A stretch of 64,000 nt of DNA from an uncultured Reyranella sp. (lineage in GTDB: Bacteria; Pseudomonadota; Alphaproteobacteria; Reyranellales; Reyranellaceae). The translations under genes were made by a program, and so were the position numbers. Each line of letters begins with the position of its first letter. Positions within the stretch are counted from its first letter, which is position 1. Below are positions 3,161 through 13,643 of this stretch, piece by piece. The stretch is from assembly GCF_945957355.1 (NCBI RefSeq), contig NZ_CAMFKM010000009.1, positions 1-64,000 on the forward strand. The letters run 5' to 3'. The notes beneath the pieces were generated by a model. It was not told where the DNA came from. It did no database searches and saw nothing but the letters and a program-made list of their open reading frames with translations.

Positions 3161-4846
3161 CTAATCGCCCTCGACGCCGTAGGCGGCCTTTGCTGCTTCC
3201 TTGCTGACGAGGCCCAGCTGCACGTCGCGTTTGACGGCTTCCGGATCGCGCGCGGCGGGATCGCCATAGCCGCCGCCGCCGGGCATCTCCACCACCAGCC
3301 GCTCGCCGGCCGGGATGGTCTGGAAGCCCTTGGCCTTCAGCTCCTGGCCCGAGGCGAGCGACAGGCGGCCGTTGGCGCCGGGCTTGCCGCCGTCGCGGCC
3401 GCGCGCCGGATACTTGACCCGCTCGAAGGTCGCGAAGATGCCGAAGGGCGCGCCTTCGCGATGCTCGACCTCCATCACCTGACCGAGGCCGCCGCGCTGT
3501 GCGCCGGCTCCGCCCGAGTCCTGGCGATACTCCTTCTTCCAGACGACGACGGGCGCGATGGTCTCGGTGATCTCGACCGGCACGTTGCGCACGCCGGAGG
3601 GGAAGGGCGTCGCGGAGAGTCCGTCGAGCGTCGGGCGTGCGCCCGCGCCGCCGGAGTGGAAGGTCGTCACCATGAAGGGGCGGCTGTTGCCAATCGTCCC
3701 GGTCATGCCGTGTCCGGCGCCGAGCTTCAGGTTCCAGAGGTTGGACGTGCCTTCCGCGGGAACCTGTCCCGGAATGACCTGATGCAGCGCGTCGAAGCAG
3801 ACGTCGGGCAGCATGTGGCCGATCGTGCTGCGTGCATTCACCGCCGCCGGGTAGAGCGCGTTGACGATGGTGTTTTCGGGTGCCGTGACCAGGATCGAGT
3901 CGAGCGTGCCGGCATTGTTCGGAATGGTCGGCGCCACCACACACTTGATGCCGAAGGCGGTGTAAGCCTCAGTGTAGCACATCGGCGAATTGATACCGTA
4001 GATAGACGAGCCCGAGGTGCCGGCATAATCGACCGAGATATGATCGGCATGGATCGTGACGGCGGCATGCAGGTCGATCGGCGCGTCATAGCCGTCGATC
4101 CGCATATGGCCCTTCCAGGTGCCGCGCGGCAGCTTGGATATGGCCGCGATCATGCCGGCGCGGCTCTTCTCGATGATGTGCGTGCCGAGCTCGTCGAGAG
4201 TGTCGATCCCGTGCTCCGCCATCATGTCGGAAAGACGCCTTTCGCCGATCCCGTTACAGCCGATCAGGGCGTGGATGTCGCCCTCGACCTGCACCGGCTC
4301 GCGCACGTTGGCGCGCACGATGCGCATCACGCTCTCGTCGATCACGCCCTCGCGCATCAGCGGCAGCAGCGGGAGGAAGAGTCCTTCATGGAAGACCTGG
4401 CGTCCGTCGGGCGACTGGCCGAGACCGCCGATGTCGACCACATGCGTGGTGCAGGAGAACAGCGCCACCAGCTTGCCGTTGTGGAAGGCGGGCGAGGTGA
4501 CGACGATGTCGTAGAGATGGCCGGTGCCTTTCCACGGATCGTTGGTCAGGTAGGCGTCGCCCGGCTTCATCGTCTCGACGGGAAACTCTCGGATGAAGTG
4601 GATGACGCTGCGCGCCATCGAATTCACGTGACCCGGCGTGCCGGTGACCGCCTGCGCCAGCATTCGGCCCTCGAGGTCGAACACGCCGGCCGAGATGTCG
4701 CCGGCCTCGCGCGCGCTGGTCGAGAAGGCGGTGCGTACCAGCGCCCGGGCCTGCTCCTCGACGACGGAGAGCAGGCGGTTCCACATGACCTGCAGGCGGA
4801 TATCACCCAGCGGTGATTTGGCTTGTGCTTGGGTGGTCGTGCTCAT
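3161..4846 (-). CDS. hydantoinase B/oxoprolinase family protein
   Basis: MWNRLLSVVEEQARALVRTAFSTSAREAGDISAGVFDLEGRMLAQAVTGTPGHVNSMA...GDAYLTNDPWKGTGHLYD is typical HyuB. Confidence 0.9.
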   Translation of the reverse strand: MSTTTQAQAKSPLGDIRLQVMWNRLLSVVEEQARALVRTAFSTSAREAGDISAGVFDLEGRMLAQAVTGTPGHVNSMARSVIHFIREFPVETMKPGDAYLTNDPWKGTGHLYDIVVTSPAFHNGKLVALFSCTTHVVDIGGLGQSPDGRQVFHEGLFLPLLPLMREGVIDESVMRIVRANVREPVQVEGDIHALIGCNGIGERRLSDMMAEHGIDTLDELGTHIIEKSRAGMIAAISKLPRGTWKGHMRIDGYDAPIDLHAAVTIHADHISVDYAGTSGSSIYGINSPMCYTEAYTAFGIKCVVAPTIPNNAGTLDSILVTAPENTIVNALYPAAVNARSTIGHMLPDVCFDALHQVIPGQVPAEGTSNLWNLKLGAGHGMTGTIGNSRPFMVTTFHSGGAGARPTLDGLSATPFPSGVRNVPVEITETIAPVVVWKKEYRQDSGGAGAQRGGLGQVMEVEHREGAPFGIFATFERVKYPARGRDGGKPGANGRLSLASGQELKAKGFQTIPAGERLVVEMPGGGGYGDPAARDPEAVKRDVQLGLVSKEAAKAAYGVEGD

Positions 4847-6909
4847 GCGCGGTCCTCCAGGACGATCTGACCCACCGCGTTGACATGGGCGATGAACCCG
4901 TTCGGGACGACGGTGGTGGTGCCATCCTCGACGATGAGTGCCGGACCGTCGAGCGCCATGCCCGGCTCCAGCAGCTTGCGCTCATGAAGGGCCGCGCGCT
5001 CCAGGAGACCGGTCGCGGGATCCAGCACCTCGCGGTGGCCCGACGCTGCCGGTGCCGCGACCCGGGCGACGGATGAGGCCGGCGGCGGCAGCGGCCGGTC
5101 GGTGCCGATCGACAGGGTCCAGGTCAGGGCCTCGACCTCGAGCTTGGGAATGGCGCGGCCGAACACCTGCTCGTAGGTCGCCTCGAAGCGGCGGCGCAGG
5201 TCGCTCGCGGCGTCAGCGCTGAACGGCTGGTTGGGCAGCGGCACGGCGATCTCATGGCCCTGGCCGCGATAGCGCATGAAGGCCTGGCGCGATTCCACCA
5301 GCGTCTCGCCTGGCGCCGCCGGCCGCACCACGGCCTCGGCCTCCGCCCGCATCGTCGCGAACAGCTCGTTCAACGTCTTCGCGTCGAACATGTCGAGCCG
5401 GACATGGCGCGTCCTCACCACCTCGTAGGCAATCGAGGCGCGCAGGAAGCCGAAGGCCGAACCGACGCCGGCGCCCATCGGCACGATGACCCGCTTCATG
5501 CCGAGCTTGCGGGCGAGCCGTGCGGCATGCAGCGGCGCGGCGCCGCCGAAGGCGATCAGCGTGCGATCGGCGGTGTCCTTGCCGTTCTCGACGGCATGCA
5601 CGCGGGCAGCGCTCGCCATGGTCTCGTCGACGATCTCCGCCACGCCGGCCGCCGCGCCCTGGGCATCGGTGCCGAGCGGGCCGGCCAGCGACTGCAGGGC
5701 GGCCTCGGCCTTGTCGCGGTGAAGCGGAATGGCGCCGCCCGCGAAGCGCGTGGGATCGAGGCGCCCCAGCGCCGTATCGGCGTCGGTCACGGTGGGCTCG
5801 GTGCCGCCGCGCCCGTAACAGGCTGGCCCCGGGACGCTGCCGGCGGAATCGGGGCCGACCTGGATGCGGCCCAGCGCATCGAGACGCGCGATCGAGCCGC
5901 CGCCGGCGCCGATCTCGACCAGTTCGATGACGGGAATGCGGACCGGCAGTCCGGAGCCCTGCACGAAGCGATAGGCGCGCGCGACCTCGAACTGGCGCGA
6001 ACGCTGCAGATCGAGATCGTCGAGGAGGGTGAGCTTGGCGGTGGTGCCGCCCATGTCGAAGGCGACGGCCTTGCGCGCATCGTTTTCGGCCGCTACCGCG
6101 CGCGCCAGGATGGCCCCGCCCGCCGGCCCGGACTCGACCAGGCGCACGGGGTAGCGGCGTGCCGTGTCGACCGTGGTGATGCCGCCCGACGACATCATCA
6201 GCAACAGCGGCGCCACGATGCCTTCCGCCCTGAGATCGGTCTCGAGCTGGCCGAGATATCCCTCCATGCGCGGCAGGACATAGGCGTTGGCGATGGTCGT
6301 CGAGGTGCGCTCGTATTCGCGGATCTCGGGGCAGACCTCGCAGGAGAGCGAGACGGCGATGCCGGGCAGTTCCTCGGCCAGGATCGCTCCGGCACGTCGC
6401 TCATGGGCCTCGTTGGTAAAGCTGTGCAGGAAGCAGACGGCGACCGCCTCGATCCTCTCTGCTTTCAGTCGTGCCGCGACGCGGCGCACAGCGGCCTCGT
6501 CGAGCGCCAGCAACACCGCGCCGTCGGAGGCCACGCGCTCCGGGATCCCGAAGCGCAGGTCGCGCGACACCAGCGGCTGCGGCCGCTCCATGTAGATGTC
6601 GTATTGCTCGAAGCGGTGCTCCCACGCCATCTCGACGGAATCTCGGAATCCTTCCGTCGTGATCAGTGCGGTGCGCGCGCCCTTGCGCTCGATCAGCGCG
6701 TTGGTGGCCAGCGTCGTGCCGTGAACCACGAGCGACACGTCCTGCGGCCGGCATTTCGCTTCGGCCAGGATGGAACGCACGCCCTCCAGCACGGCGCGTT
6801 CGGGCGCATCGGGCGTGGTCAGGACCTTGATGGCATGGGATTTCGTGCCGGTTTCGAGCACGACGTCGGTGAACGTGCCGCCGATGTCGACGGCCAGACG
6901 GGAGGACAT
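4843..6909 (-). CDS. hydantoinase A/oxoprolinase family protein
   Basis: LAVDIGGTFTDVVLE N-terminus, VESGPAGGAILA, FDMGGTTAKL, ...FGGAAPLHAARLARKLGM; overlaps the HyuB start. Confidence 0.92.
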   Translation of the reverse strand: MSSRLAVDIGGTFTDVVLETGTKSHAIKVLTTPDAPERAVLEGVRSILAEAKCRPQDVSLVVHGTTLATNALIERKGARTALITTEGFRDSVEMAWEHRFEQYDIYMERPQPLVSRDLRFGIPERVASDGAVLLALDEAAVRRVAARLKAERIEAVAVCFLHSFTNEAHERRAGAILAEELPGIAVSLSCEVCPEIREYERTSTTIANAYVLPRMEGYLGQLETDLRAEGIVAPLLLMMSSGGITTVDTARRYPVRLVESGPAGGAILARAVAAENDARKAVAFDMGGTTAKLTLLDDLDLQRSRQFEVARAYRFVQGSGLPVRIPVIELVEIGAGGGSIARLDALGRIQVGPDSAGSVPGPACYGRGGTEPTVTDADTALGRLDPTRFAGGAIPLHRDKAEAALQSLAGPLGTDAQGAAAGVAEIVDETMASAARVHAVENGKDTADRTLIAFGGAAPLHAARLARKLGMKRVIVPMGAGVGSAFGFLRASIAYEVVRTRHVRLDMFDAKTLNELFATMRAEAEAVVRPAAPGETLVESRQAFMRYRGQGHEIAVPLPNQPFSADAASDLRRRFEATYEQVFGRAIPKLEVEALTWTLSIGTDRPLPPPASSVARVAAPAASGHREVLDPATGLLERAALHERKLLEPGMALDGPALIVEDGTTTVVPNGFIAHVNAVGQIVLEDRA

Positions 6910-6911
6910 TC

Positions 6912-7889
6912 TTACTCGTCGATCTTGATGTTGCCCTTGCGTACCACGTCGCCCCAGGTAACTGAATCGCGCTTCAGGAAGGCCACGTATTCCGTCGGCG
7001 GCAGGAGAGCCGGGGTAAGGCCGCTCTCGTCGTATTTCTTCTTCACTTCCGGTTCGGCCAGCACCTTGGCGATGGCGGCGTATAGGCGGTCGACGATCGG
7101 CTTCGGCACGCCGGCCGGGGCGGCGAGGCCGTACCAGTTCTCCGCCTCGTAGCCCTTCACCGCTTCGGCGAGCGCCGGCGAGTCGGGCAGGACGGGCCAG
7201 CGCTCCGGCGACGTCACGGCCATGGCGCGCGCCTTTCCGCTGCGGATCAGGCCGAGCGTTGCGGGATCGCCGAAATAGGCGTCGACGATGCCGGCCGCCA
7301 GATCGTTCAGGGCCGGGCCGGTGCCGCGATAGGGAACGTGGATCATCTTCAGGCCGGACATCTGGGTGAAGAGCTCGCCGGCGAGATGCTGGCTGGTGCC
7401 GATGCCGCCCGAAGCCCAGCGCAACTCCTGCTTCCTCGCCAGCTCCATGAACTCCGGCAGGGTCTTCGCCGGCAGGTCGTTGCGCACCGCCAGGATGAAG
7501 GGCATTCGCACCAGTCGCGTGATCTGCGTCAGCGCCATCGGATCGTAAGGCATCTTGCTGCGCAGATGCGGGCCGGCGGTCAGCGTGCCGGCGCCGGTGA
7601 GCGACAGCGTGTAGCCGTCGGGCGCGGCATGCGACATCGCCTCGACGCCGATGATTCCTCCAGCGCCCCCCTTGTTCTCGATGATGATCGTCTGGCCGAG
7701 CTCCTTGGATAGCGGCTCCATCATGAGTCGCGCCGTGAGGTCGACACCGCCGCCCGGCGGGAAGGGTACGATCATCTTGATCGGCCGCTCGGGATACTTG
7801 CCCTGCGCCGAGGCGGCGCGGGAGATGAACGGCGAGGCGAGTGCCGTGACGAGAAGCTGCCCGAGGATGTGTCGACGAGTGTTACGCAA
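6912..7889 (-). CDS. tripartite tricarboxylate transporter substrate-binding protein (Bug/TctC family)
   Basis: Signal peptide then YPERPIKMIVPFPPGGGVDLTARL...VENKGGAGGIIGVEAMSHAAPDGYTL. Confidence 0.92.
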   Translation of the reverse strand: MRNTRRHILGQLLVTALASPFISRAASAQGKYPERPIKMIVPFPPGGGVDLTARLMMEPLSKELGQTIIIENKGGAGGIIGVEAMSHAAPDGYTLSLTGAGTLTAGPHLRSKMPYDPMALTQITRLVRMPFILAVRNDLPAKTLPEFMELARKQELRWASGGIGTSQHLAGELFTQMSGLKMIHVPYRGTGPALNDLAAGIVDAYFGDPATLGLIRSGKARAMAVTSPERWPVLPDSPALAEAVKGYEAENWYGLAAPAGVPKPIVDRLYAAIAKVLAEPEVKKKYDESGLTPALLPPTEYVAFLKRDSVTWGDVVRKGNIKIDE

Positions 7890-8008
7890 GTGCCGGTCCC
7901 TCTGTTACGCGCGCCGGCAAGATTTCGTCGGGCCAGCACCGCTCATCCGAATGCAATCACGATGCCATGGACGATCCGTGCTGCGCGAATACGCAGCGCG
8001 AGGCGATC

Positions 8009-9157
8009 CTACAGCGCGACCTTCCTGAACACCTCGACGAAGCGATCGACGTCCTGCTCGTCGTTGTAGACGTGCGGGCTGATGCGTAGCCGGCCGAGGC
8101 GCGGCGCCGCGTAGACACTTTCCGCGGCCAGCTTCTGCGGCAGGTCGTCGTCCATGCCCTTGGGGAACTGGAGGCAGAGGAGGTGCGGCGCGCGCAGCTT
8201 GCGGTCGATCACGCGAACGCCGGAGTTCGCGAGCCCGTCGGCCAGCCGATCCGTGAGCATGGTGAGCCGCGCAACGATGGGATCGTTGCCCCAACCTGCC
8301 ATCATCTCCATGCCGACGGCGGCCATTTCGAGGGTGATGAAATGGTCGCGTTCGCCCATGTCGTAGCGGCGGGCGCCGTCGGCATAGGAGAGGTCGCGGA
8401 AATAGACCTTCTGCTCCGCGGCCACGCCCTTGCGCGCCGGCGCGGTCTGCTCCAGCGGCACACCGTTCTGACGACGCTTGGCGACATACAGGAAGGCGCG
8501 GCCATAGGGACCCAGGACCCACTTGTAGGTTGGGAAGATCAGGAAGTCGGGATCGAGCGTCTTGACGTCGATGCGGCGGACGCCGGCATCGTGCGTCGCA
8601 TCGACCAGGAACGCCGCGCCCGACTGGCGTGCCGCTTCGGCAACGCGCGGCAGGTCGATGGCGCCGCCATCCGACCAATGCACGGACGAGATCGAGACCA
8701 GCGACAAGGGGGCCGCGCCCGCACGCGTCATCGCTTCCAGAACCGCCGAGGTCCAGTCACCGTCGGCGGGCTGTCTCACCTGCTCGACCGCAAAGCCGCC
8801 CTCTTCGGCGCGGCTCATCCACTCGAGCACCGGCGAGGTGTGGTCGTCCTGAAGCACAAGCACACGGCTGCCGCGCGGCAGGCTCATCACCTTGCCGGCG
8901 GTCGAGACGCCGTAGCCCACCGACGGAATCAAGGCGATATCGGCGGGATCGGCGCCGATCAACGCCGCCGCCGCGCGACGCGCGCGTTCGTACTGCTTCG
9001 ACATGAAATCGGCTTCGAGCTTCCAGGGCTGCCCTTTGCGCGCCACACCGATGCGGCCCGCTTCCTGAACGGCAAGCGGTAGCGGACTCCACGCGGCGGC
9101 ATTGAGGAAGCAGACGTCGCGCGGGATGTCGAAGAGTTCACGTTGGGAAGGAAGCAT
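8009..9157 (-). CDS. aminotransferase class V-fold PLP-dependent enzyme
   Basis: FLNAAAWSPLP, VDATHDAGVRRIDV, FPTYKWVLGPYGRAFLYV (PLP-lysine region); start taken at MLPSQRELF. Confidence 0.85.
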   Translation of the reverse strand: MLPSQRELFDIPRDVCFLNAAAWSPLPLAVQEAGRIGVARKGQPWKLEADFMSKQYERARRAAAALIGADPADIALIPSVGYGVSTAGKVMSLPRGSRVLVLQDDHTSPVLEWMSRAEEGGFAVEQVRQPADGDWTSAVLEAMTRAGAAPLSLVSISSVHWSDGGAIDLPRVAEAARQSGAAFLVDATHDAGVRRIDVKTLDPDFLIFPTYKWVLGPYGRAFLYVAKRRQNGVPLEQTAPARKGVAAEQKVYFRDLSYADGARRYDMGERDHFITLEMAAVGMEMMAGWGNDPIVARLTMLTDRLADGLANSGVRVIDRKLRAPHLLCLQFPKGMDDDLPQKLAAESVYAAPRLGRLRISPHVYNDEQDVDRFVEVFRKVAL

Positions 9158-9210: not shown

Positions 9211-9238
9211 AGGACGCCCGTCTTTCGGCGGGCGTCCT
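9211..9238 (-). terminator. Rho-independent terminator downstream of csbD-like gene
   Basis: AGGACGCCCG-tctttcgg-CGGGCGTCCT stem; on the minus strand followed by TTTTTCTTGC. Confidence 0.8.
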
Positions 9239-9265: not shown

Positions 9266-9454
9266 TTAGCCGTCGATCGCCTTCTTCAGCGCGTCCTTGG
9301 TCTTGCCGACGGCCTGCTGCGCTTCGCCCTTGCGCTCCTGGATAGCGCCCTCGACCCGCATCTTGTCGCTGTCGACCATCTTGCCGATGCCCTGCTTGGC
9401 ATTGCCGATGGCCTCGTTGGTGACGCCCTTGATCTTGTCCGTGGTGCTGCTCAT
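9266..9454 (-). CDS. CsbD family general stress protein
   Basis: MSSTTDKIKGVTNEAIGNAKQGIGKMVDSDKMRVEGAIQERKGEAQQAVGKTKDALKKAIDG. Confidence 0.9.
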   Translation of the reverse strand: MSSTTDKIKGVTNEAIGNAKQGIGKMVDSDKMRVEGAIQERKGEAQQAVGKTKDALKKAIDG

Positions 9455-9497: not shown

Positions 9498-9522
9498 AAC
9501 GCCCTTCCCCTGAGGACGTTCC
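9498..9522 (-). promoter_or_regulatory. EcfG (general stress sigma) type promoter for csbD
   Basis: Minus strand GGAAC-N16-CGTT (plus-strand AACG 9498-9501, GTTCC 9518-9522), about 45 bp upstream of the csbD ATG. Confidence 0.7.
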
Positions 9523-9580
9523 TCGGTTCGCGGCATTGCATCTCTTGCCTTGCTGTCGCCACAACACTGCGTCTTTTTGA

Positions 9581-9605
9581 GGAACCAATGTGGTCTTTCA
9601 GCGTT
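9581..9605 (+). promoter_or_regulatory. EcfG type promoter for the trehalose operon
   Basis: GGAAC (9581-9585)-N16-CGTT (9602-9605), upstream of otsB. Confidence 0.7.
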
Positions 9606-9718
9606 GGAAAGGCACGCGCCAGGCGCGGCCGCTTCACTCGGGACGGCCCCCGAATCGCGGCGTGTTGTGGTCAAAGGCCCCTTCGCGCCCCAGGCAACCA
9701 AGGCGCAAAGGGGACGAG

Positions 9719-10477
9719 ATGGCAGCAACGGAATTCGACTACGGCTCGGCACTCTTCCTCGATCTGGACGGGACCTTGCTGGAAATCGCCGCCACGCCGG
9801 AACTCGTGGTGGTTCCACCGGCGCTGCCGGAACTTCTTGCACACCTTCATGCAATCCTCGGGGGCGCGCTCGCGATCGTCAGCGGGCGGTCGCTCAAGAC
9901 GATAGACCAGCTCCTCAAGCCGTTTACCTCCGCCGCCGCCGGCGAGCATGGCGTCACCCTGCGGTTCAGCGACGGCACGGTCGAGGAGATGCCCGCCGGT
10001 CTTGCGGTGACGCAGGCTTGGCGGGACTCGCTGGTTGCGGCGACCGAGAGATGGCCAGGTGTGCTCATCGAACCCAAGCCGCATGGTTGTGCCATTCACT
10101 ATCGCCTGGCGCCGGAACGCCATGACGATGTGTGGCGGGTCGTTCGGGCCCTCGTGCCCGACGATCACCCGTGGTTTCGCCTGATCCCGGCGCGCGAGGC
10201 CGTGGAGATCGGCCCGCGGTCCACCTCGAAGGGGCACGCGGTGGAACGCTTCATGAAGGACAATGCCTTCAAGGGCCGGCGTCCCATTTTCGTCGGCGAC
10301 GATTTCACCGACGAAGCAGGCATGAGCGCCGCTCGTCGGCATGGTGGCGAGGGGCTGCGCGTCCAGGACGTATTCGATGGCGATCCGGCGCAGGTACGCG
10401 CCTGGCTCTCGCGCAATGCCGAGCGGCTTGCGGGGCGGCCGGCAACGCGGCAGGCGGCGACGGGAGCTTCGGCATGA
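9719..10477 (+). CDS. otsB: trehalose-phosphatase
   Basis: LFLDLDGTLLEIA (HAD motif), IVSGRSLKTIDQLL, FVGDDFTDEAGM. Confidence 0.93.
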   Translation: MAATEFDYGSALFLDLDGTLLEIAATPELVVVPPALPELLAHLHAILGGALAIVSGRSLKTIDQLLKPFTSAAAGEHGVTLRFSDGTVEEMPAGLAVTQAWRDSLVAATERWPGVLIEPKPHGCAIHYRLAPERHDDVWRVVRALVPDDHPWFRLIPAREAVEIGPRSTSKGHAVERFMKDNAFKGRRPIFVGDDFTDEAGMSAARRHGGEGLRVQDVFDGDPAQVRAWLSRNAERLAGRPATRQAATGASA

Positions 10478-12273
10478 GCACGCTCGATCTCGGCGTCGTC
10501 GGAAACTGTTCGATCGCGAGCCTGATCGACCGCAACGGTCGCCACGTCTGGCACGGCCTGGGCCGGCTCGATGGCGATCCGGTTTTCAATGCCCTGCTGG
10601 GCGGCAACGATCCGCAGTCGGGTTTCATGGACGTCGTCGTCGACGGCATGAAGGACAGCCGCCAGCGCTATGTTCCTAATACGGCGATTCTCGAAACGAC
10701 GATCGACGGCGCGGGCGGCACAGCGCGCATCTGGGATTTTGCGCCGCGCTTCCGCCGTTTCGGGCGCATGTTCCGGCCTCCCATGCTGATGCGCCGGCTC
10801 GAGCCCGTGGCTGGCCGGCCACGCATTACCCTGCGCCTGCGTCCCACCTTCAATTACGGTGCGCGCCAGTCGCAGGTCACGATGGGTAGCAATCACATAC
10901 GTTACTACGGCGATGACGCCGTGCTGCGGCTCACCACCGACGCCTCGCTGAACTACGTGCTCCACGAGACCGAATTCTCGCTCGACCGGCCGCTCACCCT
11001 CATCGTCGGGGCCGACGAGAGCATCACCGACAATGTCGATCAGCTGTCGCGCTCCTTCCTCAGCGAGACGGAGGTCTATTGGCAGGGGTGGGTGCGCGAC
11101 CTCAACATCCCGTTCGACTGGCAGGTTGCCGTCATTCGTGCCGCCATCACCCTCAAGCTCTGCAGCTACGAGGACACCGGCGCGGTACTGGCCGCCCTTA
11201 CGACGTCGGTGCCGGAGGCCGCGGGCACGGTGCGCAACTGGGATTACCGGTTCACCTGGCTGCGCGACGCCTTCTTCACGGTGACGGCGCTCAATCGCCT
11301 GTCGGCGACCCGCACGATGGAAAGCTATGTGCGCTTCATCATCGATGTGGTCGAGGCCGGCAGCACGCACGGCGAGGTTCACAATGTGGCGCCGTTGTTC
11401 CCGATCGCGCCGGGCACCGACACGCTGGAACGCCTGATCGATACGCTGCCCGGCTATCGCGGCTACGGGCCGGTGCGTATCGGCAACGCGGCCGTCGGCC
11501 AACGGCAGAACGACGTCTATGGCTCGATGGTGCTGACGGCGGCCCAGATGTTCTGGGACGAGCGCCTGCCACGCCAGGGCGATGTCGAACTCTATCGCCA
11601 GCTCTGCGTCGTGGGCGACGAAGCCCATCGCGCCGCGCTCACGCCCGATGCCGGCCTCTGGGAATATCGCGAGCGCGAGGAGATTCACACTTTCTCGGCC
11701 GCCATGTGCTGGGCCGCCCAGCACCGGCTGGGCCTGATCGCGCGACGGGTCGGCCTCGATGGCGAATCGCGCGAATGGCTGGCCAAGGCGGGCGTGCTGC
11801 GCCAGGAGATCCTCCAGCGGGGCACCACATCCGAAGGATGGTTGTCGGGCGTGCTCGATCGCGAAATGGCCGACGCTTCCAGCCTGGTGTTTCCCGAAAT
11901 TGGCCTGCTGCGCTCCGACGACCCGCGCTTCCACGCCACCCTCGACATGGTTTCGAAGAAGCTGATGAAGAACGGCTTCCTCATGCGCTACGTCGAGGCC
12001 GACGATTTCGGCGCGCCGTCCAACGCCTTCCTGCTCTGCACCTTCTGGTACATCGACGCGCTGGCCAGCGTCGGCCGCCGCGAGGAGGCGCTCGAGCTCT
12101 TCAACAACGTGCTGGCCCGGCGCAATCATGTCGGGCTGCTCTCCGAGGACCTCGATCCGCGCACCGGGGAACTGTGGGGCAACTTCCCGCAGACCTACAG
12201 CCAGGTCGGCCTCATCCTGTCGGCCATGCGGCTCTCGCGGAGCTGGGAGGAGGGGCTGTGGCACGCCTCGTGA
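10474..12273 (+). CDS. glycoside hydrolase family 15 protein (trehalase/glucoamylase-like)
   Basis: LGVVGNCSIASLIDRNGRHVWHGLGRLDGDPVF, WDYRFTWLRDAFFTV, EEIHTFSAAMCWAA; ATGA overlap with otsB. Confidence 0.9.
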   Translation: MSTLDLGVVGNCSIASLIDRNGRHVWHGLGRLDGDPVFNALLGGNDPQSGFMDVVVDGMKDSRQRYVPNTAILETTIDGAGGTARIWDFAPRFRRFGRMFRPPMLMRRLEPVAGRPRITLRLRPTFNYGARQSQVTMGSNHIRYYGDDAVLRLTTDASLNYVLHETEFSLDRPLTLIVGADESITDNVDQLSRSFLSETEVYWQGWVRDLNIPFDWQVAVIRAAITLKLCSYEDTGAVLAALTTSVPEAAGTVRNWDYRFTWLRDAFFTVTALNRLSATRTMESYVRFIIDVVEAGSTHGEVHNVAPLFPIAPGTDTLERLIDTLPGYRGYGPVRIGNAAVGQRQNDVYGSMVLTAAQMFWDERLPRQGDVELYRQLCVVGDEAHRAALTPDAGLWEYREREEIHTFSAAMCWAAQHRLGLIARRVGLDGESREWLAKAGVLRQEILQRGTTSEGWLSGVLDREMADASSLVFPEIGLLRSDDPRFHATLDMVSKKLMKNGFLMRYVEADDFGAPSNAFLLCTFWYIDALASVGRREEALELFNNVLARRNHVGLLSEDLDPRTGELWGNFPQTYSQVGLILSAMRLSRSWEEGLWHAS

Positions 12274-13643
12274 TCGTCTCCAACAGGGTCCCGGTGCCGA
12301 AGGCGCGGGGCGCCTCGGCCGGCGGCCTGGCGGTGGCGCTGCGCGACCTGATGACGCCCGGGGCGATGTGGTTCGGCTGGAGCGGACGGCTATCGTCAGA
12401 GCCCTCTGCGCAACCCGCCATCGTCGAGGCGCGCGGCGTAACCTACGCGACGGTCGATCTCACGCCCGAGGCCTATCGTGGCTTTTACGTCGGATTTGCA
12501 AACGGCGCCTTGTGGCCGCTACTGCACTTCCGGCTGGGGTTGATGCATTTCCGCCGCGAGGACTACGAGGGCTACCTCTCGGTCAACCGCTCCTTCGCCT
12601 CGGCGCTCGCGCCACTGCTGCAGGGCGACGACACGGTATGGGCGCACGACTATCATCTGATCCCGTTCGCCCGCCTGTTGCGTAATCGGGGTTTCCAGGG
12701 GCGGCTCGGATTTTTCCTGCACGTGCCCTTCGTCCCACCCTCGATGCTCGAGGCCATGCCGGTGGCGCGCGAGCTGGTCGCCGATCTCTGCGCTTACGAC
12801 GTCGTCGGCTTCCAGACCGAGGAACATGCCCGCGACTTTCGCGACTGTGCGCAACGCCTGCTGGGGGCCACGGTCGAGGGCGAGTGGATTCGCCTTGCCG
12901 GGCGGCGGGTGCGCGCCTTCGCCGATCCGATCGGCATCGATGCCCAGAGCTTCGCCCAGGACGCCGTGCGGGCCGAGAGCGACAAGGCGGTGCAGCGGGT
13001 TGCCGAGAGCCTGTCGAACCGCGCGCTCGCCATCGGCGTCGACCGGCTGGACTACTCGAAGGGCCTGCCGCACCGCTTCGAAGCCTTCGGCCGGCTGATC
13101 GAGAAGCATCCCGAGCACAAGCGGCGCATTCACTTCCTGCAGATCTGCCCACGCTCGCGCGAGGAGGTCGACGAGTATCGCAAGCTGCGCACCGAGCTCG
13201 ACCGGCTGGCTGGCCGCATCAACGGCCGCTTCTCGGAGTTCGACTGGACGCCGCTCAGGTATTCCACCCGGGCTGCGCCGCGCGCGACCCTGGCGGGACT
13301 TTACCGCCTCGGCCGGATCGGCGTCGTGACGCCACTGCGCGACGGCATGAACCTGGTCGCCAAGGAATTCGTGGCGGCCCAATCGGACGAGGATCCCGGC
13401 GTGCTGGTTCTGTCGCAGTTCGCCGGGGCTGCGCAGGACCTCACCGAGGCGCTGATCGTGAACCCGTTCGATCCCGATGCCATCGCCGATGCGATGCATG
13501 TGGCGCTCACCATGCCCTTGTCGGAGCGGCGGGAACGTCACAGCGTTCTGAAGGAGAAGGTCCTGCGCACGACGGCGGAAGCCTACTGCCGGCGCTTCAT
13601 CGAGGCCCTCGAAGCGCCGTCGGACGCGCGCGCGGCGGCCTAG
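12258..13643 (+). CDS. otsA: alpha,alpha-trehalose-phosphate synthase (UDP-forming)
   Basis: [68 protein letters not shown] start. Confidence 0.95.

Follow-up and report, generated by a model that had tools for sequence, protein, structure and literature searches.

The window (the whole stretch of 64,000 nucleotides analysed here) contains two divergently oriented transcription units. On the minus strand lies csbD (positions 9266 to 9454), encoding a CsbD-like stress protein of 62 aa (Pfam PF05532, 55.9 bits against a cut-off of 40), with an intrinsic-terminator-like hairpin and T tract (9211-9238, minus strand) 27 bp beyond its stop codon. On the plus strand lie otsB (9719-10477; trehalose-6-phosphate phosphatase; Pfam PF02358 (Trehalose_PPase), 98.4 bits; TIGR00685 above cut-off), a glycoside hydrolase family 15 (GH15) gene (10474-12273; Pfam PF00723), with a 4-base overlap between its start and the otsB stop, and otsA (12267-13643; trehalose-6-phosphate synthase, GT20; Pfam PF00982, 386 bits; TIGR02400, 538.5 bits, slightly below the equivalog cut-off of 564.85). 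From the csbD start (9454) to the otsB start (9719), the divergent gap spans 264 bp. The closest relatives of OtsB showed 85-96% identity, and the named records among them were Reyranella; the search for relatives placed the genome in one large genus.

The gap carries one exact GGAAC-N16-CGTT match in each outward direction. The csbD-facing site (9498-9522, minus strand; GGAACGTCCTCAGGGGAAGGGCGTT) has its -35 box GGAAC at 9522-9518 and its -10 box CGTT at 9501-9498, and the end of the -10 box is 43 bp from the csbD ATG. The otsB-facing site (9581-9605, plus strand; GGAACCAATGTGGTCTTTCAGCGTT) has GGAAC at 9581-9585 and CGTT at 9602-9605; the distance from its -10 box to the otsB ATG, 113 bp, is longer than usual, a little above the norm of about 100 bp. 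The two -35 boxes are separated by 58 bp. A sigma-70-like promoter was also searched for in the gap, and none was found. Both matches agree in position and strand with the first-pass annotation, which had also judged two exact matches in one 264-bp divergent region improbable. These are the only exact GGAAC-N16/17-CGTT matches in the window; when the window was shuffled, the mean was 0.75 exact matches and two or more were obtained in 15 of 100 shuffles, so the bare count is unremarkable. The chance of one match in each outward direction inside a 264-bp divergent gap was, however, calculated as about 2e-6 per gap, in agreement with that earlier judgement. Thus, the remarkable feature of the pair is its position (one site per direction in one gap), not the count in the window.

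The first-pass annotation had read the two sites as EcfG general-stress promoters, and had named a genome without ecfG, phyR and nepR as a finding that would speak against them. PhyR, NepR, a kinase and two EcfG-like sigma factors were found to share one locus (contig 6, 124000-143000, hereafter L032; positions are counted within it). On its minus strand are a HisKA_2/HWE kinase gene (4424-6151), which matches the PhyK model over nearly the full length with 215 bits, far under the 750-bit cut-off, and is therefore named PhyK-like only, and phyR (6166-7155), whose product combines a sigma-like domain and a receiver domain (NF006623, 298 bits against a cut-off of 240; two PhyR-specific Pfam domains above cut-off; solved relatives including 4qic, named anti-anti-sigma factor PhyR). 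The plus strand holds two genes for ECF sigma factors (7342-7902 and 8030-8617), which share one chain, PDB 5uxx, as closest solved relative, and nepR (about 8737-8964; above the curated cut-off). From their place beside nepR and their similarity, the two sigma genes are classed as putative EcfG-like genes. NepR was detected in 17 of the 25 genus members searched (E <= 0.001), a number to be read with the caution that the domain is very short and weaker copies can be missed.

As for motifs within this locus, no exact match was found upstream of nepR or the ecf genes themselves. One exact match (L032:7306-7330, minus strand) falls in the interval from phyR to the first ECF gene; a possible ORF for a 27-aa membrane peptide (7188-7271, minus strand) is 35 bp away, and the PhyR start is about 320 bp downstream. 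Another, near the 3' end of nepR (C6:133139, minus strand), points away from every called gene start in the surrounding 400 bp and was left out of the promoter-placed set. About 5 kb separate the phyR/nepR locus from a second CsbD gene of the genome (L032:1208-1528, contig 6, minus strand; PF05532, 75 bits); sites are present at L032:1554-1578 and 1801-1826, and GCAAC-N16-CGTT is found 26 bp from the predicted start.

A genome-wide scan for the motif, proposed in the first-pass annotation for defining the regulon, was also performed. The raw count (73 exact copies against 66 for the reversed motif) was uninformative, being barely above the control since coding sequence makes up most of the genome, and was replaced by a placement test, in which the genes around the matches were called by a simple codon-usage model (the two sites in the window were included). 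A correctly oriented gene start was found within 300 bp for 33/72 motif copies, against 2/64 for the reversed control (Fisher p = 2e-9), and 39/72 copies were intergenic, against 7/64 (Fisher p = 7e-8). The scan thus revealed a real promoter-placed regulon. The genes downstream of the placed motifs (LigD, DUF1328, DUF3309, DUF4142, PRC-barrel, a mechanosensitive channel, a general-stress-protein-26-like flavin fold, OmpA, AI-2E, EncFtn-like, glucose dehydrogenase and others) are typical of a general stress regulon. The GCAAC variant was also in excess genome-wide (99 against 63 for its control).

Conservation of the sites was evaluated with the otsB loci of 30 Reyranella species. Of these, 26 carry an exact otsB-facing site (N16 in 25, N17 in one), three carry a site with a single mismatch, and one (L164) has no recognisable site before otsB. 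When the 28 N16 sites were aligned on the motif, mean pairwise identity was 0.98 in the boxes and 0.34 in the spacer, with 0.31 in the 20 bp upstream and 0.45 in the 20 bp downstream; the value for the boxes is partly by construction (sites were picked by the motif), yet 25 of the 30 loci have the exact N16 form at a similar distance. csbD adjoins otsB in eight of the 30 loci, and in all eight G[G/C]AAC-N16-CGTT faces csbD, 34-43 bp from the ATG, with a varying spacer. Phylogenetic footprinting thus supports both predicted promoters. If both matches were products of chance in GC-rich DNA, as the 15 shuffled windows and the near-control genome counts might suggest, neither this position-specific conservation across the genus nor the strong promoter-placement bias would be expected, and we regard chance as scarcely credible.

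It is also conceivable that the otsB-facing site alone works, the csbD-facing match being coincidental and csbD being read from another promoter. The limited number of loci in which csbD adjoins otsB (8/30) and the -35 box of the csbD-facing sites, which is GGAAC in only three of the eight and GCAAC in five, would fit such a case. Against it, the site on the csbD side is kept in 8/8 loci at nearly the same distance from the ATG despite the varying spacer, and the other csbD of the genome likewise has GCAAC-N16-CGTT close to its start. Furthermore, according to a report on Sphingopyxis granuli TFA (PMC7083833), the -35 boxes seen most often in the general stress response (GSR) are GGAAC and, in second place, GCAAC, and csbD is a direct GSR target, with a transcript value of 0.00 in the ecfG1 ecfG2 double mutant. 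A functional otsB-facing site with a coincidental csbD-facing match is, in our judgement, improbable, and we retain outward promoters on both sides.

Some further elements were noted around the otsB-facing site. A box at 9546-9567 of the window, some 15-35 bp ahead of the otsB -35 box, has an 11-bp period and approximates CGCC-T/A-CA-N3-TCGCCACA; it is found again in most species, L164 with its missing EcfG site among them, and is possibly a binding site of another regulator. A 9-bp inverted repeat around the plus-strand promoter (CCACAACAC, 9559-9567; GTGTTGTGG, 9662-9670) was taken as chance, the halves not co-varying in relatives. In about 13 species (L135-L164), GGAACGAGGC-N11-GCGTT occurs at one position inside the CDS of the next gene, about 1.9 kb beyond the otsB start, and this recurrence most likely reflects codon conservation rather than a promoter.

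Because exact sites, their placement and conservation, a full regulatory set and a genome-wide regulon are all present, the gap is very probably a bidirectional GSR control region driven by sigma-EcfG; the original reading of the sites as EcfG general-stress promoters is thus supported by the regulators in the genome, the placement bias and the footprint of both sites. As judged from the protein families, the HWE/HisKA_2 kinase would phosphorylate PhyR under stress, and phosphorylated PhyR would bind NepR and free an EcfG-type sigma factor; which of the two ECF sigma genes acts here is likewise inferred from families. RNA polymerase with sigma-EcfG would then start outward transcription at both sites in vivo, giving a csbD mRNA leftward and an otsB-GH15-otsA operon mRNA rightward, and the hydrophilic CsbD protein and trehalose would be expected to rise together.

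If transcription starts just past 9605, as we infer, the genus-conserved stretch 9606-9718 (plus strand; aligned for 24 species) would form the otsB 5' UTR (about 105 nt). It contains a genus-conserved element (9655-9713, plus strand), composed of the block GCGGCGTGTTGTGGTC and the hairpin arms CCCCTTCGCGCC (9678-9689) and GGCGCAAAGGGG (9702-9713), the latter with a Shine-Dalgarno-like AAAGGGG five bases before the otsB ATG. Transcription might depend on EcfG while otsB output is set mainly post-transcriptionally, with the hairpin covering the ribosome-binding site until heat, a small RNA or another signal opens it. The Shine-Dalgarno-like tract in the 3' arm beside the ATG would suit such a role, and so would conservation: block and arms are kept in about 20 of the 30 species, and a covariance model of the leader gave strong matches at Reyranella otsB (down to E = 2e-18), all matches with E<1e-6 being at Reyranella otsB except one in an unrelated coding gene. 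Occurrence of the element away from otsB was dismissed, the best outliers lying inside unrelated coding genes. Several species (L158-L162 and L164) are, on the other hand, without the hairpin. Pairing is retained in 88.5% of cells, no more than column composition predicts, and one pair of the stem changed on both sides, which is not above shuffles. In energy, the hairpin comes 10th among 179 starts of the genome, unexceptional for GC-rich composition, and the overall fold of the leader has z = -1.1. The Shine-Dalgarno-sequestering hairpin and an alternative GGCGTG/CGCGCC pairing, which exclude each other, are both well formed, but covariation supports neither structure, and a search of 9606-9718 against Rfam gave no match, even with E values up to 1 allowed. 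We accordingly describe the leader as conserved sequence in which a regulatory hairpin is possible, and not as a demonstrated RNA switch, and mainly post-transcriptional control of otsB appears rather unlikely to us; sigma-EcfG control from the gap is preferred.

Note that csbD and ots are already known EcfG targets in other alphaproteobacteria, and the region is thus ordinary in kind; its setting is slightly more interesting. Sphingopyxis granuli TFA, as described in PMC7083833, is similar in the GGAAC-N16-CGTT motif with its GCAAC variant, in csbD as a direct target and in a nepR/ecfG/phyR/HWE-kinase locus with two ecfG genes; however, it belongs to another order than Reyranella, no pairing of csbD with ots was seen in the part consulted, and the word "trehalose" is absent from the paper. 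In Bradyrhizobium diazoefficiens (PMC8092242), otsA/otsB are under sigma-EcfG control as well, and the trehalose-6-phosphate route serves osmotic stress tolerance; there otsC precedes otsB (otsCB-otsA), whereas the order in Reyranella is otsB-GH15-otsA with a gap common to csbD. In Sphingomonas melonis Fr1 (PMC6599016), the motif is GGAAC-N17-20-GTT, the best EcfG sites mostly lie no more than 100 bp from the start codon, and GSP26, PRC-barrel and MscS are among the targets, as here, but trehalose is made via the maltooligosyl route and not via OtsA/OtsB. In the open-access literature searched, we found no general-stress study of Reyranella; the present data extend the PhyR-NepR-EcfG regulon, with its consensus and a likely target list, to this genus, and tie trehalose synthesis and CsbD to one switch.

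Back-to-back pairs were also counted in the whole genome, with GGAAC and GCAAC sites pooled (172) and one site required per outward direction within 300 bp. Outward site pairs are present at nine divergent gene pairs (0.36 expected; convergent, 0), with ten site pairs in total since one region has two plus-strand sites, and the reversed-control sites (129) gave no back-to-back pairs. The excess corresponds to a Poisson p of about 2e-10, a value that ignores the concentration of promoters in divergent gene pairs. In every one of the nine, the flanking called genes point away from each other, with the plus-strand site of one (L226) inside a short, weakly scored ORF; the paired genes include GSP26-like with a DAO-family oxidoreductase, DUF1328 with a small ORF and DUF2177, DUF2846-like with an EncFtn-like protein, and MdoG with an unknown gene. 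Between a GSP26-like gene and a FAD oxidoreductase gene (G000:C1:489765-489813; L224/L225), two GCAAC sites (489765/489788) overlap in head-to-head orientation, and one GTTGCAAC palindrome provides both -35 boxes. A strict tight pattern (0-30 bp between -35 boxes), outside which the csbD/ots pair falls with its 58 bp, was found in 18 of 25 genus members (one control match) and, in the class, in 35 of 385 genomes against about 11 with a control match. Back-to-back pairs are thus far commoner than chance in this genome and common across the genus. The excess is due in part to promoters lying in divergent gaps, a share not separable from that of selection for pairing; it poses a concrete, testable question on coupled stress promoters. 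Tentatively, Reyranella may hold an unusual share of its stress regulon as tight EcfG pairs, in which two genes would fire coupled, together with a genus-specific translational leader at ots. A further exact GGAAC back-to-back pair (G000:C3:33046-33137; L018) lies between genes of 420 aa and 322 aa, both without a Pfam match.
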